Part shown: positions 4,905-35,550 of the stretch, one piece after another
How the letters are laid out: the number at the start of each line of letters is the position of its first letter
Numbering within the stretch: the first letter of the stretch is position 1
Virus record (IMG/VR): IMGVR_UViG_3300035180_003391
Location: 1 to 36,482 of that record
DNA from: a virus
Strand: one strand, 5' to 3'
DNA length: 36,482 nucleotides
Program-made: the position numbers and the translations under genes
The notes under the pieces: generated by a model
Told to the model about the DNA's origin: nothing
What the model saw: the letters and a program-made list of their open reading frames with translations, nothing else
Database searches by the model: none

Positions 4905-6020
4905 TCAGTACGAAGCGATCTGCGGGAAGTTCATGCCGGCATCGACACGGTTGTTGACCGCGCCGATGGCGTCTTCGCTCACCGGGATGAAGTTCTGCAG
5001 CAGGGCGTCGGCGTTCGTCGCCGGGTTCGCATCGGCCGAGTAGAGCTCGAGCTTGCGGACCGCGGCGATGTTGACCATGCCCATGCCGATGTCTTCCCAC
5101 GCCTGGAACGTGATCAGGTTCGCGATCTTGTCGATGTAGAACTTGGTGTTGTTCAGGACGTAGAACTTGCCGAAGAACTCCGGCTTGGTGAACGCGTAGA
5201 TGTTGCCCGGACGCAGGATGTCCGTCTTGATCGTGCGGATGTACGCACGCCCGAGGAGCGTGTTGTACTTGTAGCCGTCGACGACCGTCTCCGACTGGAT
5301 GCGGTCGCCGAAGTCCTCGACGGTCCACTGGAGAACGTCGTCCCAGTCGACCTCCGTCATGAGCAGACGCTCCGCACGAAGGCGGTTGCCGTCCAGCATC
5401 TTGAAGAGGTTGACGAAGTCCGGACGCTGGACCGGGCGGACGACTGCGTCGTTCGTGCTGGCCATACGTGCGAGCTCGCCCTTGCGGACCGAGAACTCGG
5501 CGCAGGTGCCGATGGTGCCGTGGTGCAGGGCGGTCGGGATCGCGTTGTTCGCTTCCACCTGGAGGGCCTGGACGGCCGACTCGATGTGGCTGGTGAACTC
5601 ACGGTCCTCGATCTCCTGGATGTCCTTCACCGAGTTCTCCTCGATGATCTTGGTGATGGGCATCTCGTAGGCGAGCAGCTCCTGCTCCGTCTTCTGGAAC
5701 ACCTCGGAGGCGATCGTGAAGAACGCGATCTCCGCCTTGGGGCCACGGATGAAGCGGGCCGTCGGCTGGCCACGGAACGTCATGCTCATGGCACGCGAGC
5801 GGGGCTCGACGTCCACGATCTTCACGAGCGTGTCGTGGTTGACCGACCGCTGGCAGTCGGCGCGGGTGACCTGCTCCGGCGGCAGGATCTTGCGGGCGAA
5901 GCTGACCTCGCGGAGGCGGTCTCGGACGTAGGAGCCGCCGTACTCGGCGATCTTCTCCTTGCCCTCCGCCGACCCGAGCTTGGTCGCGAACATCTCATTC
6001 AGGACGCGTGCGGGAACCAT
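4905..6020 (-). CDS. Major capsid protein (HK97-fold type, 371 aa)
   Basis: The start at 6020 follows AAGGAGAGAGACC, a strong ribosome site. The longer frame to 6104 runs back through that site and is rejected. The length suits an HK97-type capsid protein. The sequence has a helical N-terminal arm, a long helix near an EIEDREFTSHIESAVQAL stretch (a spine-helix candidate), and a C-terminal beta-rich segment (DGYKYNTLLGRAYIRTIKT) of the kind seen in capsid proteins of large phages. It follows the protease and a putative decoration gene, the usual order. The fold is inferred from length, pattern and context. Confidence 0.85.
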   Translation of the reverse strand: MVPARVLNEMFATKLGSAEGKEKIAEYGGSYVRDRLREVSFARKILPPEQVTRADCQRSVNHDTLVKIVDVEPRSRAMSMTFRGQPTARFIRGPKAEIAFFTIASEVFQKTEQELLAYEMPITKIIEENSVKDIQEIEDREFTSHIESAVQALQVEANNAIPTALHHGTIGTCAEFSVRKGELARMASTNDAVVRPVQRPDFVNLFKMLDGNRLRAERLLMTEVDWDDVLQWTVEDFGDRIQSETVVDGYKYNTLLGRAYIRTIKTDILRPGNIYAFTKPEFFGKFYVLNNTKFYIDKIANLITFQAWEDIGMGMVNIAAVRKLELYSADANPATNADALLQNFIPVSEDAIGAVNNRVDAGMNFPQIASY

Positions 6021-6051
6021 GGTCTCTCTCCTTCTTCCTTGCTCGGGTGGT

Positions 6052-6600
6052 TCAGGTGGCGCCGTTACGAACGGCCCACCCGGACATGAAGCGGAGCTGC
6101 CCACCGTTGCCGCCGGGGAGACGCGTCACGTAGCCGACGATCGGGGCGTTGTCGGCGTACGACGAGCCAACCAGGCCCACGTACTTCCGACCGAGGTCGA
6201 TGGTCGCAACCTTCACCGGCTGGAGCATCGTGTTGATGGCAGCACCGCTGCCGATGGCCACTGTCGCATCGAAGATGCGGGTGTTGAACTCATACTGGCC
6301 GAGGAAGAGGATCGGCATCTTGCGATCCGCCAGGGCCTGCACGTCGTAGCGGCCACGCTCTGCGAAGAGCGGGAAGCTGACGGTCGTCGCCGCAGCACCC
6401 AGGGTGGTCACGTCCGCAGCGCGAACGAGCTTGCCCTGGTTGATGCCAGCGGTGTTGTCCAGCGTCATCCACTCACCGTCGACCAGCGCGTACAGCGCCT
6501 GAGGGTTGCTCAGGGTCGGGTCGGTGAGGGGAAAGTCACGGCGGTGGATCGGGCTGACGTCCGAAACCGGCTCGAAGTTGACCCTCTGCACGGTGCTCAT
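6052..6600 (-). CDS. Putative capsid decoration or head-stabilising protein (182 aa)
   Basis: This beta-rich protein has few charged helices and no Cys. It lies directly upstream of the major capsid gene, 31 bases apart. Its AAGGAGAGAACGAC ribosome site is almost the same as that of the capsid gene, suggesting matched high expression. Phages commonly place a decoration protein next to the capsid gene, so that is the best guess. It could also be another surface or fibre-base protein. No family motif was identified. Confidence 0.75.
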   Translation of the reverse strand: MSTVQRVNFEPVSDVSPIHRRDFPLTDPTLSNPQALYALVDGEWMTLDNTAGINQGKLVRAADVTTLGAAATTVSFPLFAERGRYDVQALADRKMPILFLGQYEFNTRIFDATVAIGSGAAINTMLQPVKVATIDLGRKYVGLVGSSYADNAPIVGYVTRLPGGNGGQLRFMSGWAVRNGAT

Positions 6601-13325: not shown

Positions 13326-14042
13326 ATGGCGGGAAAAAGCATGGGAAGCGACGAAGCCTTCGTCACGGCAGACGAGGCCGCCAAAATGCTGGTCGTCTCA
13401 GTCGGTCAGATCCACTCTTGGAGCCGAACTGGGCTGATTGAGCCTCACTACCCTGCGGGTCACAGCCCCAACCAAGTCAGTCGAAAAAAGTTCCGACGCG
13501 AGGACGTTCTGAGCCTGCAGGAGCTCCGAGAGCTGACTCGAGGCTCGCCAAAGCAGAAGGTACCCCAACTTGCCATGCGGGCCTTCGTGTCGAGCAGGCG
13601 GACGGAGCGTCGCCTCGAGGAGCTGATGCTCTACCTGGGGCTGACCACGACATCCCTTGGCATCGAGGACGAGCAGGTGCGGTCGTTCCACGCAGCCGCT
13701 ACGGACTTCCTCGTCAACCCGGGCATCCTGGCCCAGACCGAGATCGTGGAGTGGGCGCAGAAGCTCCTGACCATCACCGAGGAGTACCTGGCCCTCGTGG
13801 TGCGGACCACCGGGGACAAGGACGCCTGGAAGATGTTCACCGCAGTGGTGCTCGAGCTCGCAAAGCAATGCTCGGAAGGAAGCACTGCCCGGATGTACGT
13901 CGAGCACTCGCGCAGAAACCTGCGCAACGCCTCGTACTTCCACATCAGAGACGTGAAGGGCACCAGGGAAGCCGACAAGACGTTCCCTCGAGAAGGCTAC
14001 ACCTTGCGACTGGCTCGCACGTTCTTTCCGCAACAGACCTAG
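13326..14042 (+). CDS. MerR/excisionase-like helix-turn-helix DNA-binding protein (238 aa)
   Basis: The ATG at 13326 has AAGGA five bases upstream. A frame open back to 12069 is only antisense to the neighbour. Residues 12-65 match a MerR- or excisionase-type winged HTH (VTADEAAKMLVVSVGQIHSW, then a basic KKFRRED wing leading into a helix). Residues 85-238 are a helical domain of unknown function, possibly for dimerisation. The gene stands alone on the plus strand inside the minus-strand structural block, divergent from the 404-aa gene and overlapping the end of the terminase gene by 4 bases. It probably regulates transcription. A terminase small-subunit-like DNA-recognition role is an alternative, since it adjoins terL. 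Confidence 0.8.
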   Translation: MAGKSMGSDEAFVTADEAAKMLVVSVGQIHSWSRTGLIEPHYPAGHSPNQVSRKKFRREDVLSLQELRELTRGSPKQKVPQLAMRAFVSSRRTERRLEELMLYLGLTTTSLGIEDEQVRSFHAAATDFLVNPGILAQTEIVEWAQKLLTITEEYLALVVRTTGDKDAWKMFTAVVLELAKQCSEGSTARMYVEHSRRNLRNASYFHIRDVKGTREADKTFPREGYTLRLARTFFPQQT

Positions 14043-15883
14043 CCCTGATAGAGCGGGCCCTTGTAGCTGCCCTGGTTCGGCCCCTGCTGATCGAACTCCC
14101 GCTTCGGCACGATGATGTCCGGGCGGGGGATGACGATCATGGACGCGAGGAAACAGTACAGGATGGCGTGGAACGCATCATCCGGTCGGTCCGGTCGGTG
14201 GTTGTACTGAATCATCCGCAGCGTGTTGTTGTACTCGCTGTAGATGTTCAGCAGGTCCTGTGCGAACGGCTCCCGGAACTCCTCGAAGCGAGGGAACTCG
14301 ATCTGTTTTCGCTTGATGGCGGCAAAGATGTCGCTCATCACCTCAGTCCGGTGAACGATCCAGCGCTGAAGCTGGGGGTTCATGAAGACCTTCTTCTTTG
14401 CCCGGCCCGCGTACTGGAAGCGCTGCACTCGAGCCTGCCCGAACTCACGAAGCAGAACGTTGTTCGTAGCGAAGCCACCGCCGTAGTCCGACCCGATGAT
14501 GCGCACGTTGAAGGCCCGGAAGATGGCCGTCAGCTTCTTCACCTGAATCTGCGGATCAGTGTCCTCCCCAGTGAACCGATGGATCCAGAAGATACGAAAC
14601 TTCGATCCCTCGTAGTACCCAAGGCAAGCGACGGAGTAGCTGTTCTCTCCGGTGCCATGGTCTAGGCCTGCGAAGATCTGATGACCCGTCAGCTTCTTGC
14701 GGGTCCGCTCGAGCACATCTGGGTGCATCGTGATGTCTGGGTTGCAGCACTCCTTCACCTGCCCGAGGGTGAGAGGACGCATGCCCGAGTCGTACGAGAT
14801 GCCGAGGACCTCGTTGTAGAACTTGTCTCGAGGGTATCGGCTGTAGTCGAGCATGATCTCGTCCCACGACCGCCAGGGCACCATGAGCTGGGGAATGCGG
14901 TAGCTCTCAAAGATGCCGTCCTTCACCATGTTCGCCCACTGGGCGTCCTTGTGACTGGCGTCGATGGGCTTGCCGCACTTCTCACAAATGAGGCCACGCC
15001 GCCCCATGTTCTTCTCGCCGAGGACGTTCCAGTAACGCCCTCCTTCCCCACCATGCGCATCGCAGGGCACGACCCACTCCCCCTGCGTGGACATCGGGCG
15101 GCCGTCCTTGGAGACGCCAGACCGGTAGTACTCGAGGGAGTTGTCCAGGCCCTTGGGCGTGCCGGAGTAGATGTACCGCTTCAGTGCTTCCGGTGCGTGG
15201 GAGGTGCACTGCTCGATGACCGGGATGTTGTCGGAGAGGATGTCCTGGAGCTCGTCGATCGCGAGGCACATCGCAGGGATGCCTCGGGTACGGTCGGCGT
15301 TGAGGAAGGCGTACCGCAGGGTGATCTTGGCCCGGTTGACGAACTGCTTCTCGAAAATGTTCTGCGAGAGCATGCTCGTCGTGTACGCCCTCAGAACATC
15401 GCTCGTCTCGATGGGCTCCTTGATGCGGTCGGCGCTGAACACCTTCGTCTGCGTCGCTGACGGCGAGACGTAGAGCGTCTTGTACGCCGTGATGATGCAC
15501 GAGTAGGTGAGGATGATGTTCCCGAGCAGGGTGCTCTTTTCGACCTGTCGGCCGCAGAACAGGAGCATGCGCTTGGCGGGAGTGTTGTACGGACGGCGCA
15601 TGTGGCGCCTGCCCTCGAAGCTGAAGTTCTCGTAGCCGAGCCCATCCTGCCTGGGCATCCGGAACGCGAACTCTGTGAACTGGCTCGGGTAGACCGACGG
15701 CAGCTTGGTCAGCCTCTTGGCCTGCGCATCGATGTCGATGAAGTCCTCGAAAGCCTCGGGCTCCGGCATCCAGGGCACGCCGTTGTGCATCCGGGCGAGC
15801 TCTTCGTCCGTGAACTCCACCGGCTCGAGGTCTTCCTCCGCTGTCGGTTCGCCCTTCTCAATGTCTGTCTGGTGAGAGAACAT
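14039..15883 (-). CDS. terL: Terminase large subunit (614 aa)
   Basis: This is the DNA-packaging motor and nuclease. The ATPase domain has Walker A GRQVEKST (111-118), Walker B CLAIDE (D210/E211) and the YSGTP coupling motif. The RNase H-like nuclease domain shows Asp-bearing motifs AGLDHGTG (near 405), IIGSDYGG (near 463) and RPDDAFH (near 567). A Cys/His insertion between the domains (VPCDAH then CEKCGKPI) resembles a zinc-binding hairpin known in other large terminases. The Walker A has Glu where Gly is commonest. The start at 15883 lacks a strong ribosome site; ATG at 15790 is an alternative. K-x-A motifs are absent, in contrast to the virion proteins nearby. Confidence 0.95.
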   Translation of the reverse strand: MFSHQTDIEKGEPTAEEDLEPVEFTDEELARMHNGVPWMPEPEAFEDFIDIDAQAKRLTKLPSVYPSQFTEFAFRMPRQDGLGYENFSFEGRRHMRRPYNTPAKRMLLFCGRQVEKSTLLGNIILTYSCIITAYKTLYVSPSATQTKVFSADRIKEPIETSDVLRAYTTSMLSQNIFEKQFVNRAKITLRYAFLNADRTRGIPAMCLAIDELQDILSDNIPVIEQCTSHAPEALKRYIYSGTPKGLDNSLEYYRSGVSKDGRPMSTQGEWVVPCDAHGGEGGRYWNVLGEKNMGRRGLICEKCGKPIDASHKDAQWANMVKDGIFESYRIPQLMVPWRSWDEIMLDYSRYPRDKFYNEVLGISYDSGMRPLTLGQVKECCNPDITMHPDVLERTRKKLTGHQIFAGLDHGTGENSYSVACLGYYEGSKFRIFWIHRFTGEDTDPQIQVKKLTAIFRAFNVRIIGSDYGGGFATNNVLLREFGQARVQRFQYAGRAKKKVFMNPQLQRWIVHRTEVMSDIFAAIKRKQIEFPRFEEFREPFAQDLLNIYSEYNNTLRMIQYNHRPDRPDDAFHAILYCFLASMIVIPRPDIIVPKREFDQQGPNQGSYKGPLYQG

Positions 15884-20243: not shown

Positions 20244-21455
20244 CTACGTGAGCACCGTGGGCTCGCCTGCGGTGACCGACAGGGTGACGGGGAAGGGAAC
20301 CGGAGCTCCCGGCATGGGCATCGGCGTGTAGGGCAAGAAGCCCTCCACCAGGCAGCCAAGGTAGGCCACCGGCCTGGAACCAGGGCCGAGCTTCACGACG
20401 CCTCCCTTGATGTGCGTGTGCGAGCCTCCGTCGATGATGGCCCCCGCTTCCGCCGTCATGGTGAGGGTCTTGCCCGAGATGAACTCCATCTCTTCAGTGG
20501 ACCGCACACGCAGACGCTTCTTCGTCGACAATGACATGCTGCCGTTGCAGCGAAGGAACGTGCCACCAGCTCGGTCGAAGAAGAACCGGAAGACGGTCTT
20601 GGCTCGGATGTCCGCAGGGTCCGGATGGCCAGTCTCCGGATTGAAGCTCTCCGGGGCGACCACCACTTCCGCCACGATGTAGCTCGGGTCTGTGCCAAGA
20701 CCGAGGGCATCGATGTCCTCTTGGTTCCCGCGCGCCTTGTCCGTGGGCTCCGCGATGGGGTCAGAGACCTTGCCAACCTTCACTCGAATGTCCGCCGACT
20801 TGTTGTCCGCGAAGACCCTGAAGCTGTGCGTGTACTCCGTGGGGAGGTGAGCAAGCCCTGCTCCCTCCTGCATGCTCCACAGGATCGAACCGCCCATATT
20901 GTGGTGGGCGTAGTTGTTCGAGATGTCCATGATGAGGTGATTGAGCGGGATGTAGAGCCGCTGTGCGAGCTCCGAGCATCCGATCTGCACCACCCCGCCA
21001 CGATGGAGGATGACGAAGTTGTCGTCCCGCGTGCGCATCCAGATGTCACCGGGCTTAGCCTGCGGTCTGCCACCAGCAAAGGAGGCACCGCTCGAGCTCG
21101 AACCTGACGAGCTCTTGCTGGTCGTACCCTGTAGCGCATCCGGCGCCGCCAGGTCCACGTTCTCGACGGGCATGAGGAACGCGCCCACGAAGGGCGCGCT
21201 CGAGTCCGACGGGATGCACACCACGCACTTCGCCCCGACCTCGGGGAAGATGGAGATGCCTTCCCCATTCGAGTAGTGCATGTACGGGCTGGAGACCTGG
21301 ATGTCGAAGTATCGCTTGCGGTCAAAGTCCGCAGCCACGTCGACCGTCCAGTTCACCAGATTGACGTTGACGATCTTCCCCAGCACCCACTCGGCGGGAA
21401 CGTTGCCCTCCATGTAGCTCATGGAGGTACGGAATCTGGTTTCTCCACCGGGCAT
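20244..21455 (-). CDS. Baseplate spike protein (gpV/gp5-like, 403 aa)
   Basis: Residues about 22-95 look like the OB-fold of phage spike proteins (EWVLGKIVNVNLVNWTVDV, then FPEVGAKCVVCIPSDSS). A Ser/Gly linker (about 108-122) leads to a beta-rich region with RTRDDNFVILHRGGVVQIG. The C-terminus has SHTHIKGGVVKLGPGS, typical of needle-like triple-stranded beta spikes. The ATG overlaps the RNAP stop codon (TAATG). A spike implies a cell-puncturing baseplate, usual for contractile-tailed and some siphovirus-type phages. The fold is inferred from pattern. Confidence 0.75.
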   Translation of the reverse strand: MPGGETRFRTSMSYMEGNVPAEWVLGKIVNVNLVNWTVDVAADFDRKRYFDIQVSSPYMHYSNGEGISIFPEVGAKCVVCIPSDSSAPFVGAFLMPVENVDLAAPDALQGTTSKSSSGSSSSGASFAGGRPQAKPGDIWMRTRDDNFVILHRGGVVQIGCSELAQRLYIPLNHLIMDISNNYAHHNMGGSILWSMQEGAGLAHLPTEYTHSFRVFADNKSADIRVKVGKVSDPIAEPTDKARGNQEDIDALGLGTDPSYIVAEVVVAPESFNPETGHPDPADIRAKTVFRFFFDRAGGTFLRCNGSMSLSTKKRLRVRSTEEMEFISGKTLTMTAEAGAIIDGGSHTHIKGGVVKLGPGSRPVAYLGCLVEGFLPYTPMPMPGAPVPFPVTLSVTAGEPTVLT

Positions 21456-24400
21456 TAGTAGTTGGCCTTGGGCACGTTCTTCAAGTGCCCGTACCCGGGC
21501 AGGTTGGACTTCTCGCTGGTGACGCCGAACTCAGCGCCGTACACCATGCCAGGAATCGGATGAGTGCCGTGCAGGTGCGAGATGGCCGAGATGGCGGCAG
21601 CGTCGGAGATCGTGGTCTTCAACTTCTGATGCTGCAGCTTGGCCATCCAATCTTCCTGCAACGACAGCGGCAGCATGTTCACACCCTTGAGCGTAGGCGT
21701 GTGCTCGATGGGACGCAGCCCCTGTTTCACCAGATCGCTGTTCTTCTTCTGGATCACCGAGAGCGGCTGGAACTCACCACGGAGAATACCTTCTGCGTCA
21801 CCAGGATGAACGATCTTGGTGAGGTTCGACATCGCCTTCACGACCGTCTCGATGTGTCGGCGCTTGATGCCCTCATCACGATACACGTCGTAAATCTCAG
21901 ATGCGAGGTGGTTCTGCACCTTGTCGATGCTGCCCGTCGCTGCGTACAAGTCATGCGGGTTGATGACTGTACGCGTGGGGTCGGACAGCGAGGACCCTGC
22001 GTCCACGTGCATGCCAACGTGCAGACCTCCCCAGTCACTCAAGCCGAGCGGCTTGTGCAGGGCGTTGCCCGCCGTGTCCTTGCCGATGAAGTGACGGAAC
22101 CCACCGACCGACACGTTCACGCCCGTTGACGTGGGATCAATCTTGTCGATCTTCCCGGACCGCATTGCCAGCGTTGCCGCATTCGCGATCTTCTTCGGCA
22201 GCATGGTGAGCTGCTCGAGCATCGAAAACTTGTCGACGGCCTTGCCGCCTCCTTGCTCCGCCACGCCGCCCGTGTGGAAGGCCTTCATGGGAAGCTGCAC
22301 CGCACGCTCGCCGATGGTCTGTGTGGCGATGATGCCGATGTTCGTGCCCATCGGGTGGAAGTCCCCGTTGGCCGACAGCCCCACGCACTTCTGACACAGG
22401 CCGTGATCGTGCTCGCACTTCAGCGGGCTGCGCACCAACATCTTGGCGTTCTTGTCCGCTGCTCGAACCTTCCCAACGACGTCAGGAGTGAGCGTCGAAC
22501 CTGCAGCCAAATGGATGTGCCCGGACTTGTAGTCCTGCGCGAGGACTCGGTCGTGGATGTCCTTCTCGCCCACCCCGAGGAGGATGCCTCGAGTGGTGCC
22601 GCAGTCCGGGCTGGCCACCATCATGTCCATCGTGCTGGCCATGAGCAGCTTCGAGAGAGCTCCAGGCCCGCTGGTCTCCTGAACCTTCATGACGGTGCCT
22701 CGACGAGCTCCGTGCATCTGCGTCCAGTAGCTCGCGAGGTCCAAGCCTTCTGAGTACGACCTGTCCACAGGCGTGGCGATGGTGCGGTTGGCAGAGTCCT
22801 GCACGAGCATCGGCGCAATGACCATCTGCTTGTACTGGTTCCACTCCGGCTTCATCCCAGCCTTGTGCATCATGTAGAGATTGGAAGGGTTGTCCTTCAT
22901 CTTCTCATCATGCTTCTCGTGCATCTTCTGGTCGGCCTTCATGTAGACGTCGACCACCCGACGGTGCTGTTCCGCCGGAGTGAGGGTCAACTTCTTGATG
23001 GCCACCACCTCACCGTGCGCCTTGTCGAGAACTTCGTCTCGCATCTTCGCATCGGGTATGAAGTCCTTGAGTGACAGCGTGTGCGTGCCGATGGGGACGA
23101 ACACGTTCTTCTTCGGATCTGTCAGGTTCGCCGCGGTGTTGCCCGCCATGGGGATGGGAATGATGCCGAACGACGCGTGGTTGCCGAGGTCCTTCAGCTT
23201 GTTGATGGACTTGTCGAACTCCTCCTTGTGGTTCTTGCCGAGCGTGGAGGCCAAGACGCTCAAGCCCTTCTTGTCGAGCGGCGTCTCGATGTCGTGCAGG
23301 ATGTGACTCTGCATGGCCTCGGGCATCGTCGTCGACAGAAGCACGCGCCCTGCAGTGGTCTTCTTTCCGTTGAGCGAGACCACGTCCGCATAGTGCAGGC
23401 TGCCGGACTTCACATCGCTCAGGATCTCTCCAGGATTCTTGAACGACTTGCCGGTGTCCTTGCCCTTGAGCGACAGCTTGTAGACGCCAAGCGCCGACTC
23501 GAGCGACGGCATGTAGGCCACGTTCCCAGACGACTCCGCAAAGATGTTCTGCGAAGGCTTCATCTTGTGAACCTCCGCCACCGCCTCCTTCGAGATGGGA
23601 ACGAAGACGCTCATCGTGTCGCCGTCGAAGTCGGCATTGAAGCCACCGACGACGAGCGGATGAATCTTGATGGCGTTGCCTTCCACGATCTTCGCGTTGA
23701 ATCCCTGGATGCCGTACTTGTGCAGCACCGGGTCACGCTTGAGCATGACCGGCCGCTCCTCCATCACCTTCTCGAGAGCTCGATGCACGTGAGGATTGTC
23801 GGTCTTCAGGAGCAACTTCTGAGCATCGAGTGGCGTAGGAGCAGCGCCCATGTCCTGCAGCTTCTTCACGATGAAGGGGCGGAACAGATCGATGGCGTGG
23901 TGCTTCGGCAGGCCCATCTCGTCGAGGCCGAGAGCGGGCTCGGGCACGATGGTCGAACGCATCGTGAGGTCCTGCCGCTTCTGGGCGAGGACGTTCTGGA
24001 AGAAGCCGGTCTTCGGGCTGGCGCCTGAGAGCTGGTGCAGCAAACCCTTGTGCTCCGCCTTGCTGTACGGAACACCATAGCCCGTGAGGGCCTTCATCCC
24101 ATCGTAGAGGTTCCGACGGAGCTCCTTCTTGCCGTCGTCGGTGAGGTTCCTCGAGAGAATGGGATCCTTGAGCTGCTCGTTGACCTGCGCGAAGTCCGAG
24201 TAGAGCTGGTTGATGTCGGCGTACTTCACGTTGCCGTCTGCCATCGGCGACGCAGGACGCATCGACGGAGGCAGCACAGGCACGTGGTGCAGCACGTAGG
24301 CTTCGCTCGGCTTCATGTCGAGCTTGTCGAGAGCCTGCAGGTACTTGACCTTCTTCAGCGTCTTGTCGATCTCTGAAGGCTTCGCTTTCTTCAGCAGCTC

Positions 24401-27400
24401 CGACGACTTCGCCAAGTCCTTCTTGACGTCGATGTTCTGCAAGAGCTGCTTGATGGCAGCGCCTCCAGTGATCGCACCCCTGCCCACGTCAGCGAGCTGA
24501 CCGTTCGAGTGGATGCCCTTCTCGCCGGAGACGAGGGACATGTAGTCCTTCCCCGAGAGCCCGGTCAGCGCCATGATGGGCCGCTCGAACACAGGGTTCG
24601 GGATGGGCTCTGCAAGATCGATGCGGGACCACTTCTGCCCGCCGTGTCCGCCCGTGAGTTTCTCGTCGAAGAGACCCCCGGTGCGGGCCTTGAGCTCGCC
24701 GGTCTTCTTGTCGATCTTGGCCTCGAGGCGCTCCCCTGCCTTCGGGAGAGCTCGAGCCTCCGTCATCGCCAGGATGTGCCTGTCGGTGAGCGGGGACACC
24801 ATGAACTGGTTGCCCTGCTTCTCGATGTTGACGCCCGAGCCCTTGAGCAGGTCCTCGAACTTCTTGAAGGCGAAGGTGGACTTCGGCGTGGGCAGCGGGG
24901 AGCCCGTCTGGATGGCCTTCCACACCTCACCGTGCTGCGAGGGCCACCGCTTCGACTCCGCCTTCGAGGCATCGTCCGGCCCTTCCCCCTTCCACGTCTG
25001 CATCTCCCGCAGGTTCGCCTTCGCCCCATGGGCGAGCATGGCGTAGAGGCCGAGGGAGCCGATGCGCTGCCCGTGCTTCGGCTGCAGGTTGATGTCGTAG
25101 GTGGCCGGATTGTGCGGAGCAGGCATGCCGCTCGAGACAGCAACCTTCTTGTCGACCTGGTGCACGAGCTTGATGATGTGCTGGAAGCCGACAAGGGTCT
25201 GCCCGAGGGACTGCCCGGTGCCGGGATCGTGGAGCTCCTCTGTGTCGGAGATGCCGTGCTTCTTGAGCTCATCCTGCACGTGATGAATGACGTCGGCATC
25301 CTTGGTGAAGGACGGCACCACGATGGGCTTCCCCGTCTTGAGGGCCACCTTCGACAAGGCCGTCTCGAGCACCTGCCCGACGTTCATTCGGCCAGGGATG
25401 CCGGACGGGTTGAGCGCCACCTCGATGTGCTTACCGTCCTTCGTGTGGGGCATCTCCTTGTCCGGCAGGACCATCGTGATGATGCCCTTGTTGCCGTACC
25501 GGCCCGCCATCTTGTCGCCGACCTGCATCGGCTCGATGGTCTTCACGTGGATGTGGACGCCGTCCTTGTTGTGCGCGATGCCGACGACCTCGCCCTCGGT
25601 CTCCCCATCCCACTTGAGGGAGCGGTCCGTGTGAGCTCCGGTCAGCGACTTCCGGATGGCCGCTTCTCCCGTACGGTCCTTCAACGAGAAGGGCTTCACC
25701 GCCAAGATGAGCGGGTCTCCGGGCTTCACCTTCGAGCCCATCTTCGGCAGACCGTCGTCACCGATGTGAACGATCTGGTCCTTGCTGTAGATGCCCGGCT
25801 GGTGAATCAGGAAGGAGCTCTTCGAGAGCTTCACCCCGCCGTCCGTTGCGAGGCTCGGCTTGTAGAGGTGAACGCTCGAGAGCTTCCGAGCAGCACTGTC
25901 GCTGATGACAACGCCGTCCTCGAAGTTGTAGCCCTTGAAGGGCATGTACGCGACACGCAGGTTGGTGCCGAGGGCGATGGACCCATTCTTCGAGAAGTTC
26001 GTGTCGGCGACGAGCTGCCCAGACTTGACCTTGTCGCCCACCTTCACGACAGGGGTCGAGTGCAGCACGCTCTTCGCATCGTTGAGCGGATAGTTGTTGT
26101 AGATCTGCACCTCGTGCGTGATGCCCGAGTCTCCATGGATGACGATGCCGTCGTCCTTCACCTGCTTCACGGTGCCGGCAATCGGGGTCGAGTGCGATGC
26201 GTACGAACCCACGACCTCCTCGAAGCTGCGCATCCCGTGCTTGTCCACGCCCGTCGATACCTGAACGAGCGGCGCCTCACGGTGCAGCAACGAGATGGAC
26301 TGCTCCATGTGGCGAGTGGCCATTGAGGCGCGGTTGCCGTTGGAGTTGCCCAGATAAGGGATGAGGTTCGACGTCATGTCGAAAAGCTGACTCGGGTGGC
26401 GCATTGCGTACTGCGCCTCAGACAACTTCCCCTCTACGATGTCGTTCCCGTGCCCCGCCATCTTCACCGTGGCGCTGATGGCGTGCGGCTTGCCATCCTT
26501 CCACGTGATCTGGTCCGGCAACACCACCTTCGACGTGAAGAACGTGCCCGGAGGAACATCCTCCGTGTGCCCCGTCTTCAGGTTGTACAGAGGGATCATG
26601 GGCTGGTTGCCCACCTTCTTCACGCCGACAGGAAGGCGCAGACTCACGCCTGTCTTGCTGCCTTCGGGCGTGTTGATGGGGTCGAGATACCCGAGATGGC
26701 TCGGGTTCACGAACTTCGCCTCCTGCATGATCTGCTGCTCGGACTTGATGCCGCCCGGACCCATGATCGTCGTCTGCTGCGACTTGGCGATCATCTCGAT
26801 GGGGTTGATCTGCGTCGCAGGATTGCAGGCACTGTTCTTGTTGAACGCCTGCTTGACCGGCTCGTTGAACGTGTCGAACTTGATGATGTCGTGGATGTTC
26901 TTCGCGGTGTTGAGCTTACGCATCGACTTGAGGTTGATGGACTTCGCGGCCCCCCTCATCTTGTCGTAGACGTAGTCACCGCCCGAGCGCAGGTCCTTGA
27001 AGATGAGAGAATCACGGTCGTCCTCGGGGTGACCGGCCTGCACCTGCATCAGCTTCTTCGCGGCGAGGAGCATGGCCTCACCGTTGACGTGATCGAGAGG
27101 CTTGCCGAGAGTGATTGCTGTCGCCTCGGGCTTCATCTTCGACGCTTGCATCGTCTCGATGAAGTGCTTCTCGGCTTCGGCCTTGGATGGCGCCTCTACA
27201 CGCTTCTCGGTCTTGTAGAACTTCTCGAGGGTACCGGCCAAGCCACGAGCGGCCTTGTTCGCCTCGAGCACTTCCTTACCGAGATGCTTCTCGATGCTGT
27301 CGTCGTCCACGCCGAGTGACTTCAGCAGCGGGTAGACCGGCAGCTTCGCCTTGTTGTAATCAACCCTGAGCTGCTTGGTACCCGGATCGAAGACCATGTC

Positions 27401-27826
27401 GAAGGCGCTCTTGCCCACGACATTGAAGCGAGTCTCGAGCTCACCGTTCTGCCGCCGTCTCGTGTACGCGCCAGGCTTGAGCTGCCACTGGTTGTCGAAC
27501 TGATACTCGCGCCCGTTGAGGATGTACGAGTACCTCTGCGTCGTCTTCGGCAGCTCGGCGAGACGAATCTTCCGCTGGTCCACCACGGTGCCCGTGGCGT
27601 TGTCGACGAGGCGCATGTGCCCGTAGATGGGCACCGCAAAGCTCTCTCCTGCGAGCTTCGCTTTGTGCTGACCGCGGATGTCATCCGGGTGCAGGTCGTC
27701 CTTGGCCTCGACCTTATCGAGATGAAGGGTCTGGAACTTCCCCTTCATAGGAAAGTGGGACTGGATACCCTCGAGCGTCCGGTCGCGGAAGTGGGCGAAC
27801 GCTTCCTTCGTGTCGAGGTGTGACAT
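21455..27826 (-). CDS. rpoBC: Single-chain DNA-directed RNA polymerase, beta and beta-prime fused (2123 aa)
   Basis: The beta part (1 to about 1002) has the LNGREYQFDNQWQLKPGAY segment, a rifampicin-pocket-like region from 341 (NPIEMIAKSQQ, MGPGGIKSEQ, INTPEGSKTG), RVAYMPFKGYNFEDG, and VGDKMAGRYGNKG (769-781, catalytic lysines). It ends at a KGSGVNIE clamp segment. Within about ten residues beta-prime begins (SPLTDRHILAM, GLFDEKLTGG). The catalytic Mg2+ loop NADFDGD is at 1397-1403, the bridge-helix/trigger-loop region at about 1675-1750 (WTQMHGARRG), and the second zinc site is kept (CEHDHGLCQKC). The N-terminal beta-prime zinc finger is missing. At 2123 aa it is far shorter than the E. coli pair (about 2750 in total). 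GGAG lies 6-7 bases before the ATG. No alpha, omega or sigma gene was seen. It is coupled to the spike gene and so probably late-expressed. Confidence 0.97.
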   Translation of the reverse strand: MSHLDTKEAFAHFRDRTLEGIQSHFPMKGKFQTLHLDKVEAKDDLHPDDIRGQHKAKLAGESFAVPIYGHMRLVDNATGTVVDQRKIRLAELPKTTQRYSYILNGREYQFDNQWQLKPGAYTRRRQNGELETRFNVVGKSAFDMVFDPGTKQLRVDYNKAKLPVYPLLKSLGVDDDSIEKHLGKEVLEANKAARGLAGTLEKFYKTEKRVEAPSKAEAEKHFIETMQASKMKPEATAITLGKPLDHVNGEAMLLAAKKLMQVQAGHPEDDRDSLIFKDLRSGGDYVYDKMRGAAKSINLKSMRKLNTAKNIHDIIKFDTFNEPVKQAFNKNSACNPATQINPIEMIAKSQQTTIMGPGGIKSEQQIMQEAKFVNPSHLGYLDPINTPEGSKTGVSLRLPVGVKKVGNQPMIPLYNLKTGHTEDVPPGTFFTSKVVLPDQITWKDGKPHAISATVKMAGHGNDIVEGKLSEAQYAMRHPSQLFDMTSNLIPYLGNSNGNRASMATRHMEQSISLLHREAPLVQVSTGVDKHGMRSFEEVVGSYASHSTPIAGTVKQVKDDGIVIHGDSGITHEVQIYNNYPLNDAKSVLHSTPVVKVGDKVKSGQLVADTNFSKNGSIALGTNLRVAYMPFKGYNFEDGVVISDSAARKLSSVHLYKPSLATDGGVKLSKSSFLIHQPGIYSKDQIVHIGDDGLPKMGSKVKPGDPLILAVKPFSLKDRTGEAAIRKSLTGAHTDRSLKWDGETEGEVVGIAHNKDGVHIHVKTIEPMQVGDKMAGRYGNKGIITMVLPDKEMPHTKDGKHIEVALNPSGIPGRMNVGQVLETALSKVALKTGKPIVVPSFTKDADVIHHVQDELKKHGISDTEELHDPGTGQSLGQTLVGFQHIIKLVHQVDKKVAVSSGMPAPHNPATYDINLQPKHGQRIGSLGLYAMLAHGAKANLREMQTWKGEGPDDASKAESKRWPSQHGEVWKAIQTGSPLPTPKSTFAFKKFEDLLKGSGVNIEKQGNQFMVSPLTDRHILAMTEARALPKAGERLEAKIDKKTGELKARTGGLFDEKLTGGHGGQKWSRIDLAEPIPNPVFERPIMALTGLSGKDYMSLVSGEKGIHSNGQLADVGRGAITGGAAIKQLLQNIDVKKDLAKSSELLKKAKPSEIDKTLKKVKYLQALDKLDMKPSEAYVLHHVPVLPPSMRPASPMADGNVKYADINQLYSDFAQVNEQLKDPILSRNLTDDGKKELRRNLYDGMKALTGYGVPYSKAEHKGLLHQLSGASPKTGFFQNVLAQKRQDLTMRSTIVPEPALGLDEMGLPKHHAIDLFRPFIVKKLQDMGAAPTPLDAQKLLLKTDNPHVHRALEKVMEERPVMLKRDPVLHKYGIQGFNAKIVEGNAIKIHPLVVGGFNADFDGDTMSVFVPISKEAVAEVHKMKPSQNIFAESSGNVAYMPSLESALGVYKLSLKGKDTGKSFKNPGEILSDVKSGSLHYADVVSLNGKKTTAGRVLLSTTMPEAMQSHILHDIETPLDKKGLSVLASTLGKNHKEEFDKSINKLKDLGNHASFGIIPIPMAGNTAANLTDPKKNVFVPIGTHTLSLKDFIPDAKMRDEVLDKAHGEVVAIKKLTLTPAEQHRRVVDVYMKADQKMHEKHDEKMKDNPSNLYMMHKAGMKPEWNQYKQMVIAPMLVQDSANRTIATPVDRSYSEGLDLASYWTQMHGARRGTVMKVQETSGPGALSKLLMASTMDMMVASPDCGTTRGILLGVGEKDIHDRVLAQDYKSGHIHLAAGSTLTPDVVGKVRAADKNAKMLVRSPLKCEHDHGLCQKCVGLSANGDFHPMGTNIGIIATQTIGERAVQLPMKAFHTGGVAEQGGGKAVDKFSMLEQLTMLPKKIANAATLAMRSGKIDKIDPTSTGVNVSVGGFRHFIGKDTAGNALHKPLGLSDWGGLHVGMHVDAGSSLSDPTRTVINPHDLYAATGSIDKVQNHLASEIYDVYRDEGIKRRHIETVVKAMSNLTKIVHPGDAEGILRGEFQPLSVIQKKNSDLVKQGLRPIEHTPTLKGVNMLPLSLQEDWMAKLQHQKLKTTISDAAAISAISHLHGTHPIPGMVYGAEFGVTSEKSNLPGYGHLKNVPKANY

Positions 27827-27932
27827 CGATTCTCCGCGTTGAGGTTACTCCACGGCCCGGAAACGCTGCAAGACGAACGATAGAGCGGGCATAAGAGTTT
27901 TGAGGGGCGATTCACGCCCTAAGGAGAAGCAC
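27827..27932. promoter_or_regulatory. Divergent intergenic region between RNAP gene and plus-strand operon
   Basis: These 106 bases separate two divergent starts, so promoters for both directions are expected here or just inside the flanking genes. No convincing bacterial -35/-10 pair was found. A CATAAG and a GATAGA are the nearest AT-rich elements on the plus strand. The promoter may be phage-specific. Confidence 0.45.
27904..27920 (+). promoter_or_regulatory. Short hairpin directly upstream of a ribosome site
   Basis: GGGCG-ATTCA-CGCCC forms a 5-bp stem with an extra G-U pair at the base. It ends just before AAGGAG (27921-27926), which lies six bases from the ATG at 27933. It could shield or stabilise the leader of the plus-strand operon. 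Its role is inference. Confidence 0.4.
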
Positions 27933-28692: not shown

Positions 28693-29237
28693 TGATCTCA
28701 CTGGAAGAGAGTCCGGACCCGGATGCGGACGACCCTCTGTACTTCGAGACCAAACACATGTGCCCCTGCTGCCAGGAGTACCTGGTCTACACCGACGAGG
28801 GGTTCCTCGTTGAAGTCACGGAGGCCGCACAAGACCTGGGGAAACTCCTCACCCAGCCCTTGAAAGGCGAGGATGGGGACTACTCGTTCGAGCCCTACAT
28901 CATGCACCTCATGTGCTGGGAGGAGGTACTCGAGCAGATGCGCGAAGCCACGCAGGACACCCCTTCGGTTGAATGCGTGGACGGCATCATCTACTGCAAA
29001 AGCTGCCTGAGCACGATCGGCAGCTTCGAGCCTTTCGTGGCTGCGTACTTCGGAGAGATCCGGGTCTCCACAAGAAACCCGAACCTCGTGAAGGACGACA
29101 AGTTCGAGAAGGACCCGGGCATGGATGCGTACTGCCTGGCCTGCATTGTTCATGTCTTCGAGGAACACTTCGAGGACTGGGAAGACTTGTTCGCCGAGTT
29201 CAATATCGGCGTGGAGGATGACGAAGATGAGTCTTGA
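28692..29237 (+). CDS. Unknown acidic Cys-rich protein (181 aa), possible zinc-binding
   Basis: Cysteines occur as C24-x-C26-C27, C75, C95, C102-x2-C105 and C148-x2-C151, suggesting one or two zinc sites. The rest is very acidic, especially the C-terminus (VEDDEDES). The start overlaps the previous stop and the end overlaps the MoxR start by 11 bases. It may be an adaptor or substrate of the MoxR/VWA pair. No named family was recognised. Confidence 0.8.
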   Translation: MISLEESPDPDADDPLYFETKHMCPCCQEYLVYTDEGFLVEVTEAAQDLGKLLTQPLKGEDGDYSFEPYIMHLMCWEEVLEQMREATQDTPSVECVDGIIYCKSCLSTIGSFEPFVAAYFGEIRVSTRNPNLVKDDKFEKDPGMDAYCLACIVHVFEEHFEDWEDLFAEFNIGVEDDEDES

Positions 29238-30606
29238 GCAGATCCTGTCCACGGCATTCCTGGTCCCCATGGGGGACCCGACGAACCCCAAGTGCATCTG
29301 GGGGTTGAACACGATGCTGTGGGGAGAGCCCGGCATCGGTAAGTCGGACCGGGTCGAAGCTGCTGCAGGGATGTGCGGATTGCCCGCCCGTACGACGTAC
29401 ATCCCGACCTGCCAGCCCGAGGATGCCTCGGGCTCTCCGTTCCAGAACACCTCGAAGCTGGCGGCGATGCTCGACAGCATCATCTTCACCCTCGACGAAT
29501 ACCTCGAGGACAAAGAGGGAGGGCTCGAGCTCCCCCTGCAGCAGGGCATCTTCGAGAAGTGGATGTCGGGCCTGACGGGCCAGTACAAGCAGAAGCCCGT
29601 CGGCCTGTTCCACCGCATCATCAAGGGCATGGCGAAGGTCTCCCGTCGCTACGGCGGGAGCTTCAGTCGCATCGAGCCCATGCTGCCTGGCATCAGCGAC
29701 CTGATGCTCGATGGACAGGGCGTCTGGTTCCTCGACGAGATCTCGAGCGCACGTCCTGCGGTTCAGGGAGGCTTCCTCGGGGCCACCCTGGGCCGCAGCG
29801 TCGGCGGACAGAAGCTCCCTCCCGGCGTCCGCATCGTCGCCGCAGGCAACCCCTCCGAGTCCGCAGCGGGCGGCTGGGACATGGAGCCGCCCATGGCCAA
29901 CCGCTGGTGCCACTGGGAGACCAAAGTGCCCTCGGACGACGAGTGGTGTGAATGGCTGAACAACGAAGACGGCACCCCCTCGGAGAGCATCGAGGATGGG
30001 CAGCGCAAGGTCATGGCGGGCTGGAACACGCACTGGCCGATCATCCGGGGGCTCGCCACCGGCTACCGCAATGCGAAGGCTCACCCGCTGCACGTGCTGC
30101 CGGCAGAAGGCACGAAAGAACGTGGACGTGCTTGGTGCTCCCCCCGCACGTTCAGCTGGGCGCTGCGTGCTTGGGCCACCTGCCGATGCCTCGGACTCGA
30201 CGACAAGTTCGCCATGCAGTTCATCGAGGGCTGCATCGGTGAAGCTGCGACTACTCCGCTCGCCGCATGGATCATCAACGCCGACATCCCAGATCCTCGG
30301 GACGTCCTGAATAACGGGTGGGCCATCGACAAGCGTCGGATCGACCGATGCGTTGCCGTGTACACCTCCGTCAACAACTACGTCCTCACCCGCAAGGACC
30401 CCGAGGAGAAGAAGGCCCTCGCCATAAAGGCTTGGCGGCGACTCGAAGAGAGCATGCACGCCAACCTCCTCGACATCACCGCACAGTATGCGAAGGCTCT
30501 CGTCATCGCCGGCCTCGACCGACAGGGAGGAGCTGACCTCGCAGACGCTTCTCGTCCCGTGATGCTGCGCCTCGTGAAGACCGGCGCCCACCAGATGCCC
30601 GTATGA
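29227..30606 (+). CDS. MoxR-type AAA+ ATPase (459 aa)
   Basis: I chose the ATG at 29227, with GGAGG about 9 bases upstream; the frame is open further back without a better start. Walker A GEPGIGKS is at 33-40, Walker B GVWFLDE at 165-171, and a sensor-1-like IVAAGNPS near 203-210, followed by PMANRW. The C-terminal 200 residues are a helical lid. MoxR ATPases typically work with a von Willebrand A partner to remodel or metallate protein complexes. Here the partner gene overlaps the stop by 4 bases. Compared with short MoxR proteins it has an insertion after Walker A (about 55-160), possibly for substrate recognition. Confidence 0.9.
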   Translation: MSLEQILSTAFLVPMGDPTNPKCIWGLNTMLWGEPGIGKSDRVEAAAGMCGLPARTTYIPTCQPEDASGSPFQNTSKLAAMLDSIIFTLDEYLEDKEGGLELPLQQGIFEKWMSGLTGQYKQKPVGLFHRIIKGMAKVSRRYGGSFSRIEPMLPGISDLMLDGQGVWFLDEISSARPAVQGGFLGATLGRSVGGQKLPPGVRIVAAGNPSESAAGGWDMEPPMANRWCHWETKVPSDDEWCEWLNNEDGTPSESIEDGQRKVMAGWNTHWPIIRGLATGYRNAKAHPLHVLPAEGTKERGRAWCSPRTFSWALRAWATCRCLGLDDKFAMQFIEGCIGEAATTPLAAWIINADIPDPRDVLNNGWAIDKRRIDRCVAVYTSVNNYVLTRKDPEEKKALAIKAWRRLEESMHANLLDITAQYAKALVIAGLDRQGGADLADASRPVMLRLVKTGAHQMPV

Positions 30607-32223: not shown

Positions 32224-35200
32224 TCAGACCAGCGCAGCATCTCGCCGAGGCGGGAGCTTGTCCGGCATCGGCCGCATGTCGATGGGGTTCTGGTCCTTCT
32301 TCTCCCCACCGCTGCCTGCCCGGATGATCTGCTCCACCAGGTCTGCGAGCTCGGAACTCTGAGCTCGCAGGTTTGCGATGGCGGTCTGCTGCTGGTCCTC
32401 GGGCATCTGCTGGATGGACTGAGCCTGCATGTACGCCAAGGCTTGGATGTCCATCCCCCCAGCAGCCCCAGGCGGCATCCTCTGCTTCGAGCTCAGGGGC
32501 GACTGCATCGCCTGCATCGGGCCGGCCTGCTTCTGCTGTTGCTGGGCCTGCGCCGCCTGCTGGGTGCCCGGGGCCTCCCCAGGTGTCTGCCCAGACGGGT
32601 CCCCTGCCTCCTGGCCTCCAGGCGTACCCGCTCCCGAGTCTCCGGGACCACCCGGCTCACCAGCTGCCGCAGGCGCCGTCATGGCCTGCTGAGAGGCCTG
32701 CTGTGCCTTCACCTGGTACTTGGCCATGATCAGCTGCTGCTGGCCCTGGACTTCTGCCATGGCGAGCTGCTGCCGCTTCTGCGCCTCGATGCGAGTCGCA
32801 GTCTCCTTGATCATGATCTTGTTCTCCTCTTCCTGGTCGTAATCCGACCCGGCGAGGAGCGTGGTGTCCGAGAGCTTGCCGGCCTGGTTCAGCTGCAGGT
32901 CGAAGGCCTTGCGCTGCAGGTCATCTGCCATCTTGAACGGCTTGAACCGACCCGATGCGGTCGGCCAACGCAGGAAGCTTCCGATCTCCCGCATCACCCA
33001 CTTGAAGAGAGAGTTGTGCCGCATGATGTAGCCGAGGAATGCGTTCTCGAGCATGCGCATCGAGACGTTCGTACCGGCGTAGCTCATGCCGCCGAGGATG
33101 AACTCCCTCGGCACACCCATGCCCGTGATGATCTGCTCGCTCCACTGCTGAATCTCTCCAGCGAGCAGGAGCGCCTTGCCATCTCCGCCGACCGTCTGGT
33201 TGCCGATGGGCAGAGGGAAGATCGGGATGTAGTTGTTGTCCATGCGCCACCGAGCAATCTCGGCAGCGACATGGTCTCGCCAGTCGACGAGATTGACGGT
33301 GGTGTTGTGCGTAGCGACACCAGCGACGCAGAAGCTCTTGTCCTCCGCCATCTGGAAGCCGATGACCTCCGGAACGTCAGTGACTGCTTCCACGCCATCG
33401 ACACGCAGCAGCACGTAGTCACCACGAACGATGCCGCTCTTCTGAGGAAGCTCCTTCCAATCAACGCCGCCCTCACGACCGAACAAGAAGCGCAGCTTCT
33501 CTGCGGCGTGACCGTTGTAGTTCAACTGGTAGGACGTCGTACGGAACTTCGTCGACTCCGTAGGCTCTTCCCGCACCGTCCCACCAATGAGGCCGAACGA
33601 CAGGAGAAGACGACGTACTTCCATGATGAGCGACGGGTTCGCGAGCTTGAGTCCGACACGATCGGTGCTCGTCTTGAAGTCACACCCATCGCCCTGGAAA
33701 AGTGCGTTGAGCGTATTGAGAACGATCACGTCGCTACCCTCCGACACAACGTCGGGGATGCGCTTCGTCGCGAAACCTTCTCCGCACAACGAGACCAGCA
33801 CTTCAGAAAGGATAACGTCCTCGATACGCACAGAGCGACCGTTCTGTTCCGGGCGTTCGTGGTGCGAGACACCACGAAATCCCAGACCCTTCACGACCTG
33901 CTCGATAGTGTCCGCGATGCCCTTCTCCTTGATGTGGAGCGAGAAGGAAACCGTAGACTCGCTGTACGATCCCTCTGCGAGGTAATAGCCGATGAGGGTA
34001 CCGAGGGCAGCGCACATCGGCATGAAACGAGAAACACGATCGATCTTGTGCTCCTGCCGCATCGAGTACGCTGTCGCGTAGTCCGCCTCCGACCAACCCT
34101 TCTCTTCGAGAAGAGTCTTGCGTTCACCCCACGCGTGCGACGGATCCTTGTTCGCCTCGAGCCACTCGTATGCCTCCGCAGCGCCCTGCGAGAGTCGACG
34201 GTATACCCAGTTCTCAGTCACCGCTCGTTCGTAGATGTAATCCGAAAGATCGAGCATCTGCCCAGAACGGACCTGCCGCTTGATTGGGTACGCAACGTAG
34301 TCACCCTTCTTGAGCGACTTCGCTTCGATGAACGTCGGATCAACGAGCCCCGCTCGCGGAGTCTTTCGACCACCAACACGAGGCACCGCCAGGATCGGGT
34401 GCTCCTCGGAGACCTCGAACGGGAAGGCCGCAAGAGAAGCGACCTTGAACTTGAAGACCTTCTCACCATTCTTGATCGCTCGACGCTTCTGGTACTCGAC
34501 GCGACGCCACGCGCCAGTATGGCTGCGCAACATGTCTCCCGCATGAACCTCAGACGCGGGCAGCAGCCCGGCAGAAGTTTCCACCAACGTTTCAGGGGAA
34601 ACACAGTATGGATCTGAGGTCCCGCTCCCTGCCTGCGGAAAGAGGATGCGCAGCGGCACGATGTGCTCGAGGAGGATGGCCTCCTGCGCCTTCTTCATCA
34701 GCTGCAGGTAGAAGGTGTCCTTCATGACCGGCAGCAGCAGGGGGATGCCCCAGCCACGGTCGTGCGACGCGAGGGTCGGCCTGCGCAGGTGGAAGAGGTT
34801 GTCCTTCGAGAAGACGATGCCCTTCTGCTCACGAAGTGCGGCGATGAAGACCTGCGGGATCCCCTCGAGCACGTCCTTCTTCCCGATGACGATGTCGTTC
34901 CGGACCGTCGCGGGGATCGTGTAGAAGTACGTGTACTCGCCGGTGATGTCGTTGTACGTGATCTCGATGTCTTCCGGGTTCCAGCGGATCAACTTGATGC
35001 CGCTCGGATTGCGGAAGTAATAGTCCTTCACCGCCGCATCGCCGATCTGACCACACTGCGGACAGGTGAGGCGGAAGTTGTAGTTCGTGAACTGCCACGC
35101 TGCACGATGCTTGTCAGCAGAGCCTGACCACTTGCACTTCGTGCATGACAGATGCTTCTTGAACGGGTAGCCGATCGAGACGAAGGCGTTTCCGTACGTG

Positions 35201-35550
35201 AAGTAGTCGAGGCCGACTTCGATCTGGAACGCCCGGTAGTGCAGATGGTCCTGGAAGTAGTCCGTCCACTGACTCACAACCGACTTGGTCTCGTGGTCGA
35301 TGATGATGTCGGTGACCGGGTACTCCGCCATCTTGAAGACGACGGCGTTGATGAGCGGGTTCGTCAGGAAGTAGTACCGGCACCACCGGAACATCTGCTT
35401 GACGGTCGTCGGCAGGTACGTGTGCGCGACGTCGAAGAACGGGCTGGGGTAGTTGACCCCCTGCTGCCCGTTCCCTTGAATGCGGCCCCGCGTCTGGGAG
35501 AAACGGAAGTTGGCCGAGCCAGCTCCCCCCATTCCACTCAACCCGTTCAT
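32224..35550 (-). CDS. Portal protein interrupted by an intein (1108 aa precursor)
   Basis: The extein (residues 1-315 plus 750-1108, 674 aa) reads as a phage portal. It has a helical crown/stem pattern, segments such as WCRYYFLTNPLINAVVF and LLAGEIQQWSEQIITGMG, and a low-complexity Gln/Pro/Gly C-terminal tail. A CxxC-x23-CxxC zinc ribbon (C136, C139, C163, C166) sits in the first half. The intein spans residues 316-749. The ATG overlaps the preceding stop (ATGA). The portal forms the dodecameric DNA gate at the head vertex. The gene converges on the plus-strand operon. Confidence 0.9.
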   Translation of the reverse strand: MNGLSGMGGAGSANFRFSQTRGRIQGNGQQGVNYPSPFFDVAHTYLPTTVKQMFRWCRYYFLTNPLINAVVFKMAEYPVTDIIIDHETKSVVSQWTDYFQDHLHYRAFQIEVGLDYFTYGNAFVSIGYPFKKHLSCTKCKWSGSADKHRAAWQFTNYNFRLTCPQCGQIGDAAVKDYYFRNPSGIKLIRWNPEDIEITYNDITGEYTYFYTIPATVRNDIVIGKKDVLEGIPQVFIAALREQKGIVFSKDNLFHLRRPTLASHDRGWGIPLLLPVMKDTFYLQLMKKAQEAILLEHIVPLRILFPQAGSGTSDPYCVSPETLVETSAGLLPASEVHAGDMLRSHTGAWRRVEYQKRRAIKNGEKVFKFKVASLAAFPFEVSEEHPILAVPRVGGRKTPRAGLVDPTFIEAKSLKKGDYVAYPIKRQVRSGQMLDLSDYIYERAVTENWVYRRLSQGAAEAYEWLEANKDPSHAWGERKTLLEEKGWSEADYATAYSMRQEHKIDRVSRFMPMCAALGTLIGYYLAEGSYSESTVSFSLHIKEKGIADTIEQVVKGLGFRGVSHHERPEQNGRSVRIEDVILSEVLVSLCGEGFATKRIPDVVSEGSDVIVLNTLNALFQGDGCDFKTSTDRVGLKLANPSLIMEVRRLLLSFGLIGGTVREEPTESTKFRTTSYQLNYNGHAAEKLRFLFGREGGVDWKELPQKSGIVRGDYVLLRVDGVEAVTDVPEVIGFQMAEDKSFCVAGVATHNTTVNLVDWRDHVAAEIARWRMDNNYIPIFPLPIGNQTVGGDGKALLLAGEIQQWSEQIITGMGVPREFILGGMSYAGTNVSMRMLENAFLGYIMRHNSLFKWVMREIGSFLRWPTASGRFKPFKMADDLQRKAFDLQLNQAGKLSDTTLLAGSDYDQEEENKIMIKETATRIEAQKRQQLAMAEVQGQQQLIMAKYQVKAQQASQQAMTAPAAAGEPGGPGDSGAGTPGGQEAGDPSGQTPGEAPGTQQAAQAQQQQKQAGPMQAMQSPLSSKQRMPPGAAGGMDIQALAYMQAQSIQQMPEDQQQTAIANLRAQSSELADLVEQIIRAGSGGEKKDQNPIDMRPMPDKLPPRRDAALV
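33304..34605 (-). other. Intein with LAGLIDADG homing endonuclease inside the portal (434 aa)
   Basis: The intein begins at C316 (block A, CVSPETLVETSAGLL) and ends HN at 748-749 (block G, GVATHN), followed by extein T750. Block B-like VSEEHPILAV has H384. Two LAGLIDADG-like helices with acidic residues are seen: LIGYYLAEGS (near 517) and LNALFQGDGC (near 616). The frame continues through both junctions, so protein splicing should restore portal ...TSDPY-TTVNL.... Hand-counted 60-base blocks gave 55% and 58% GC inside, 58% and 63% in flanking portal, so any composition shift is slight. Confidence 0.92.

Follow-up and report, generated by a model that had tools for sequence, protein, structure and literature searches.

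The literature on phage RNA polymerases (RNAPs) describes split or strongly diverged single-chain enzymes (PMC7598289, PMC7824862, PMC13282480, PMC10770324). Those of the phiKZ/AR9 type have two barrels and consist of at least four polypeptides in the non-virion form and at least five in the virion form (PMC7598289), and those of crAss (gp66), YonO and P23-45 carry two barrels on one polypeptide with little cellular similarity (PMC7481178, PMC10770324). In the multimeric RNAP-encoding Caudovirales (mReC; 97 listed contigs), phage β and β' branch apart from cells, the two are described as subunits, and fusion is mentioned for crAss phage only; the PF07068 capsid is reported in all eight detected, with PF03237 / VOG01069 for the large terminase subunit (TerL) (Weinheimer & Aylward 2020, PMC7481178). 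Two of the three named mReC representatives came from metagenome 3300017989 (PMC7481178), and an RNAP "beta and beta prime" gene, maybe a relative of the clade described below, has been placed at the mReC base (PMC10159854). No described fused β-β' phage RNAP was found in the open-access literature searched.

We analysed the whole of a linear IMG/VR virus contig of 36,482 bases (IMGVR_UViG_3300035180_003391; hereafter the window). One open reading frame (ORF) at 21455..27826 on the minus strand, where all window features lie unless stated otherwise, encoded a fused β-β' RNAP of 2,123 aa. A sequence-only reading had proposed that this was a distinct class of phage polymerase, but its list of known phage RNAPs omitted mReC (PMC7481178) and the deposited β-β'N fusion of phages Arash and D69. 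We propose, with a probability of about 0.7, that the fused protein is the working DNA-dependent RNAP core of a large tailed-phage lineage, which arose by a single linkerless joining of the β C-terminus to the β' N-terminus. The window resembled mReC in that its β and β' were readily alignable to bacteria, contained NADFDGD, and clustered in a clade apart from cells in our own sampling. However, the mReC markers PF07068 and PF03237 were not found in the window, whose TerL matched PF05876 and phrog_675. Since the metagenome of two named mReC representatives, 3300017989, also yielded another fused contig (L382), the fused clade probably overlaps mReC.

The fused gene and its predicted fold

The ORF ran from ATG to TAA through 2,123 codons without an internal stop, whereas the plus-strand reading contained stops. 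Its identity was established by translation, Pfam and NCBIfam, with strong sequence matches to cellular β/β' in Pfam, NCBIfam and the PDB, and by 133 distinct full-length single-ORF homologues. Pfam located Rpb2_3 (residues 338-397) and Rpb2_6 (576-898) in the β part, and Rpb1_1 (1130-1221, below cut-off), Rpb1_2 (best stretch 1351-1422) and Rpb1_5 (1694-2011) in the β' part, the domain order being that of bacteria, β and then β'. Translation and alignment identified the β catalytic lysine motif GDKMAGRYGNKG (residues 770-781; 25484..25519) and the β' catalytic NADFDGD with its Mg-binding aspartates (residues 1397-1403; 23618..23638), the latter also in the homologue set; GDK...NKG and NADFDGD, the β lysines and β' DxDxD aspartates that mark two-barrel, cellular-type DNA-dependent RNAPs, were both present and conserved. 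GARRG occupied residues 1706-1710. Zinc-binding site 2 (ZBD2; Cys 1742, 1804, 1811 and 1814; 22385..22603) was kept according to translation and alignment, and the clamp helices and flap were retained. The sequence-only reading was therefore right that the catalytic motifs and ZBD2 cysteines are intact and stand in β-then-β' order, as translation and Pfam indicated. At the level of sequence, the ORF was confirmed as a complete β plus β' RNA polymerase with intact catalytic motifs.

The window shares two barrels with the phiKZ/AR9-type enzymes, but holds them in one ORF instead of several polypeptides. It is one polypeptide with two barrels like crAss gp66, YonO and P23-45, but unlike these it has the bacterial domain set and clear cellular similarity along most of the chain. 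Membership of the phiKZ or crAss group was rejected on the single ORF and the recognisable cellular β/β' profiles, in agreement with the earlier view that the enzyme is neither phiKZ-type nor crAss/YonO-type.

AlphaFold2 (AF2) modelling was performed on the chain as two overlapping halves, residues 1-1115 and 940-2123. The model of the β half (residues 1 to ~1003; 24818..27826; pLDDT 84.9, pTM 0.74) matched bacterial β with a Foldseek E of 3e-70 and a VIA Z of 35.2 (rmsd 3.1, 855 aligned). Similarly, the model of the β' half (residues ~1004 to 2123; 21458..24817; pLDDT 87.6, pTM 0.83) matched bacterial β' with a Foldseek E of 9e-64 and a VIA Z of 31.9 (rmsd 4.5, 1025 aligned).

The junction and the natural fusion

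VIA placed the start of β' at window residues 1003-1005 (model residues 64-66), matched to bacterial β' residues 3-7. In the junction alignment, which also delimited the β' half, the β sequence ...GSGVNIEK passed directly into ...SPLTDRHILAM, which corresponds to bacterial ...ASPEMIKSW; there was no linker, and the spacing was near-identical in all members compared. The position where β' zinc ribbon 1 (ZBD1) has been lost (GGLFDEKLTGGHGGQKWSRID; 24617..24679) was located by alignment with cells and separate-subunit phages, all four cysteines being gone; the sequence-only reading had overlooked this loss. ZBD1 (CxC...CxxC) was missing from every fused or Arash-type sequence compared, whereas cellular and separate-subunit phage rows kept it, and a search for the motif in the 133 distinct fused sequences found it in none.

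Of the 276 related IMG/VR loci that gave a match, a single ORF spanned the junction in 252 and the whole enzyme was one ORF in 229. These full-length one-ORF RNAPs comprised 133 distinct sequences, whose median length was 2,106 aa; inteins were present in the longest, and the fused homologues were ~32-73% identical to the window RNAP where scored. The sequence-only reading of a natural, phage-encoded single-chain fusion was thus upheld by an uninterrupted ORF with 133 distinct homologues, and an assembly join of two genes was ruled out, as the same single ORF recurred in all of these. When the window RNAP was compared with four relatives, dS was 1.0-1.4 and dN 0.29-0.35, with dN/dS ~0.3 in both the β and β' halves; constraint across the junction was similar to that in both halves. 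These codon comparisons confirmed that the fused RNAP is under purifying selection, junction included.

In relatives L016, L060, L066, L090 and L098, inteins had inserted at the motifs NADFDGD, GNKG and FHTGG (the last in the trigger loop), either inside the motif or next to it. Inteins usually occupy such active-site positions in essential enzymes, and their presence at the active-site motifs suggested that the RNAP is an essential enzyme. The RNAP of L090 contained at least three inteins in an ORF of 3,259 aa. In two further relatives, L094 (5956-12030) and L092 (5920-11994), the RNAP frames were broken by TGA alone (11 and 1, respectively). As TGA is the only interruption of the L094 frame, this suggests that TGA is read as an amino acid in that phage.

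Phylogenetic placement and re-split relatives

Quick trees with SH-aLRT support were built with thinly and unevenly sampled bacteria, without archaea, the β tree having giant-virus RPB2 as outgroup. In the concatenated tree, the 31 fused and 10 Arash-type rows formed one group with 100 SH-aLRT, apart from the cellular rows. The RPB2-outgroup β tree and the β' tree concurred in placing the clade outside the sampled bacteria. The cellular rows included two hits filed as phages, H4 and H8 (L022 and L023; OR844998 and CAKLQH020000005), which were bacterial by sequence or gene content: both contained ordinary bacterial rpoB and rpoC, and L023 also ribosomal genes. Hits H10 and H11 were rejected as Salmonella records. 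Plasmid hits from C. difficile were likewise rejected; the one inspected contained a ribosomal operon and is therefore a chromosomal region.

The gene could in principle be a recent capture of a cellular fused rpoBC of the Helicobacter/Wolbachia type, or else an assembly join. Cellular β-β' fusions (Helicobacter, Wolbachia, Caldisericota) do share the β-then-β' order and the bacterial motifs with the window, and one was seen in a Caldisericota MAG (L134, 4426-12231; 2,602 aa, between rplL and rpsL). The NCBIfam fused β/β' models also ranked first for the window, though its scores missed their equivalog cut-offs about tenfold (NF007172, 530 vs 5372 bits; NF011417, 471 vs 4632 bits). However, the Caldisericota fusion belongs to a cellular clade and retains the linker and ZBD1, both absent here. 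Since the trees of both halves place the phage clade outside the sampled bacteria, as does the concatenated tree, recent host capture was rejected within the sampled taxa; with the same ORF in 133 distinct sequences against an assembly join, we regard this explanation as extremely improbable. The two outcomes that the sequence-only reading had named against itself, an assembly join and nesting in a cellular clade with broken catalysis, both failed in view of the 133 sequences, the trees and the intact motifs.

The polymerases of Cobetia phage Carin-5, Yersinia phage GN1, Rhizobium phage RHph_TM3_3_6 and Vibrio phage Va2, which have separate subunits, belong to the same superfamily as the window. 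In the β tree rooted with the giant-virus outgroup, the window clade grouped with separate-subunit phage RNAPs, Carin-5 and GN1 among them, with 99 SH-aLRT in a quick tree with long branches. Both the precise branching depth and the union of the two phage clades should be taken as tentative, given quick trees, thin bacterial sampling and the long separate-subunit branches. The idea of a distinct class stood in so far as the window fell outside the sampled cellular clade, but not in so far as it grouped with the separate-subunit phages. Because of this grouping, the window enzyme is more aptly regarded as a variant among the bacterial-like phage RNAPs that is fused and lacks ZBD1; judged by the sequences compared, this variant is widespread and of single origin.

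The separate-subunit phages differed from the window in having separate genes (in the order β' then β in Carin-5 and GN1), in keeping ZBD1, in encoding a PF07068 capsid and in giving no match to sigma region 2. This T4-type capsid was detected in 4/4 of them and in 0/29 of the fused or Arash-type set (the window, 26 other such IMG/VR records, Arash and D69), which indicated that the phages of the window's lineage are distinct from the T4-like ones. The Rhizobium phage β' used as query recovered no IMG/VR relatives.

Salmonella phage Arash (gp206+gp216) and Vibrio phage D69 encode a protein of 1,525-1,527 aa that comprises β and β' through the catalytic aspartates, with the C-terminal part of β' as a second protein of 606-609 aa. 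Arash and D69/D181/D148 belonged to the window's clade, with an identical junction, ZBD1 gone and the portal adjoining the RNAP, but differed from the window in this division into β+β'N and β'C proteins, which are not annotated as fusions. In D181 (L243), a homing endonuclease gene interrupts the β-β'N gene, unlike in D69. Uncultured kin with three RNAP genes were also found; their break lay inside β', and the β ORF still ended in the start of β' (GGLFD...NPLME...). Natural gene breaks in relatives fell after residues ~1110 and ~1477, and the fused, two-gene and three-gene relatives had one common junction position. The shared junction, together with breaks misplaced inside β', indicated that the splits followed an earlier fusion; on the alignments, the β-β' fusion is of one origin in the phage clade. 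It follows for phage RNAPs in general that multi-gene enzymes can arise through secondary splitting of a fused ancestor. A fuller scenario, in which a single old linkerless fusion was ancestral, ZBD1 was lost, and re-splitting inside β' came later in the isolates, with a bacterial-like, one-polypeptide, alpha-independent and possibly virion-carried enzyme, is put forward tentatively, at slightly under even odds.

The same gene breaks bear on whether the fused polypeptide might be cleaved after translation into β- and β'-like subunits that form an ordinary two-subunit core. They demonstrate that chain breaks are tolerated; however, they lie inside β' and not at the β/β' border, where the junction is linkerless and conserved. 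Cleavage is accordingly quite improbable.

Gene neighbourhood and proposed function

The RNAP gene was surrounded by phage structural genes. The terminase large subunit (14039..15883) was identified by phrog_675 (E 7e-46) and PF05876, and the major head protein (4905..6104) by phrog_2522 (E 9e-11) and a 26% homologue in D69. The portal protein, with a LAGLIDADG intein (32224..35550; weak phrog_2833 match, E 0.0066; PF14528), matched at 33% the portal-annotated Arash gene just upstream of the RNAP. A conserved divergent pair adjoins the RNAP on the plus strand (29125-31985), consisting of an ATPase (phrog_1297) and a DUF2201 metallopeptidase/VWA protein, and the window portal lies beyond this block, on its far side from the RNAP. 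On the other side, the start codon of the next structural-module gene (20244..21455; no family match, adjacency kept in close relatives) overlapped the RNAP stop (TAATG). Close relatives kept the entire block of portal, divergent ATPase/VWA block, RNAP, next structural-module genes and terminase, and portal-RNAP proximity persisted in many distant fused members and the Arash clade. By its terminase, major head protein and portal around the RNAP, the window is that of a tailed phage, and the earlier description of a gene embedded in phage structural genes was accurate. Contigs of the clade reached 199 kb.

A promoter-like element, TTATnCC-N15-CTTGC-N20-TAnnCT, was located upstream of the RNAP gene (27842..27894) and was conserved in diverged relatives. 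The whole three-box array was present in 10 loci with rigid spacing. Its right half occurred in 13/25 loci, always upstream of the RNAP, and in 0 cases in randomised sequence or elsewhere in the flanks. Some relatives had 12-15 extra bases between boxes 2 and 3. A generic sigma-70 promoter scan gave no match. The element may act forward or divergently, and host RNAP could equally use it.

Alpha (PF01193) was detected in 0/33 phage records, some of which may be fragments, and in 13/14 control genomes; the host might supply it, or a phage copy might have diverged beyond the reach of PF01193. Sigma-70 region 2 was matched in 7/23 long fused records and 5/5 Arash-type records, most fused records, some maybe fragments, having no match, and region 4 in 10 long fused and 3 Arash-type records.

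From these data we infer the activity, alpha independence, sigma partnership and timing of the fused RNAP. A single round of translation would give the whole crab claw: the two double-psi barrels, the bridge helix and the trigger loop, together with clamp helices and flap. In core RNAP assembly, an alpha dimer normally brings β and β' together. We propose that, with β and β' made as one chain, it would not be needed for their pairing. A sigma-70-like protein, or else an unknown phage factor, would most likely direct promoter choice from the flap and clamp helices that the enzyme has kept. The enzyme would be co-expressed with the morphogenesis genes from its own promoter and would transcribe phage genes, probably middle or late, since it is the first cistron before the morphogenesis genes and is preceded by a conserved promoter-like element of its own.

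The same location would suit a virion RNAP that is packaged, injected and active on early genes, like those of N4, phiKZ (vRNAP) and P23-45 (gp96). In the clade, the gene has the portal on one side and tail/terminase genes on the other, and its stop codon overlaps the start codon of a structural-module gene. A single chain would not have to be put together again once it had passed the tail, and P23-45 has a virion RNAP of the same superfamily (PMC10770324). However, the enzyme of the isolate relatives is re-split into at least two genes, and the full clamp and bacterial-like fold here differ from the much reduced P23-45 virion enzyme. We regard virion packaging as less probable than the reading above, yet as a serious alternative.

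The clade is large, with at least 133 distinct sequences, and mostly uncultured, and offers a compact, bacterial-like single-chain core. Such a core makes the need for alpha and zinc ribbon 1 directly testable, may serve as a simple expression tool, and adds an architecture to the debate on phage RNAP origin.

Two further genes of the window gave Pfam matches: a structural-module ORF had an N-terminal ferritin-like domain (292-3075; PF00210, E 5e-15), and a head-module protein had an inorganic pyrophosphatase-like domain (9416-11581; PF18823, E 8e-40). In several relatives the terminase ORFs were over-long, ~970-1,063 aa vs ~615, probably through inteins.
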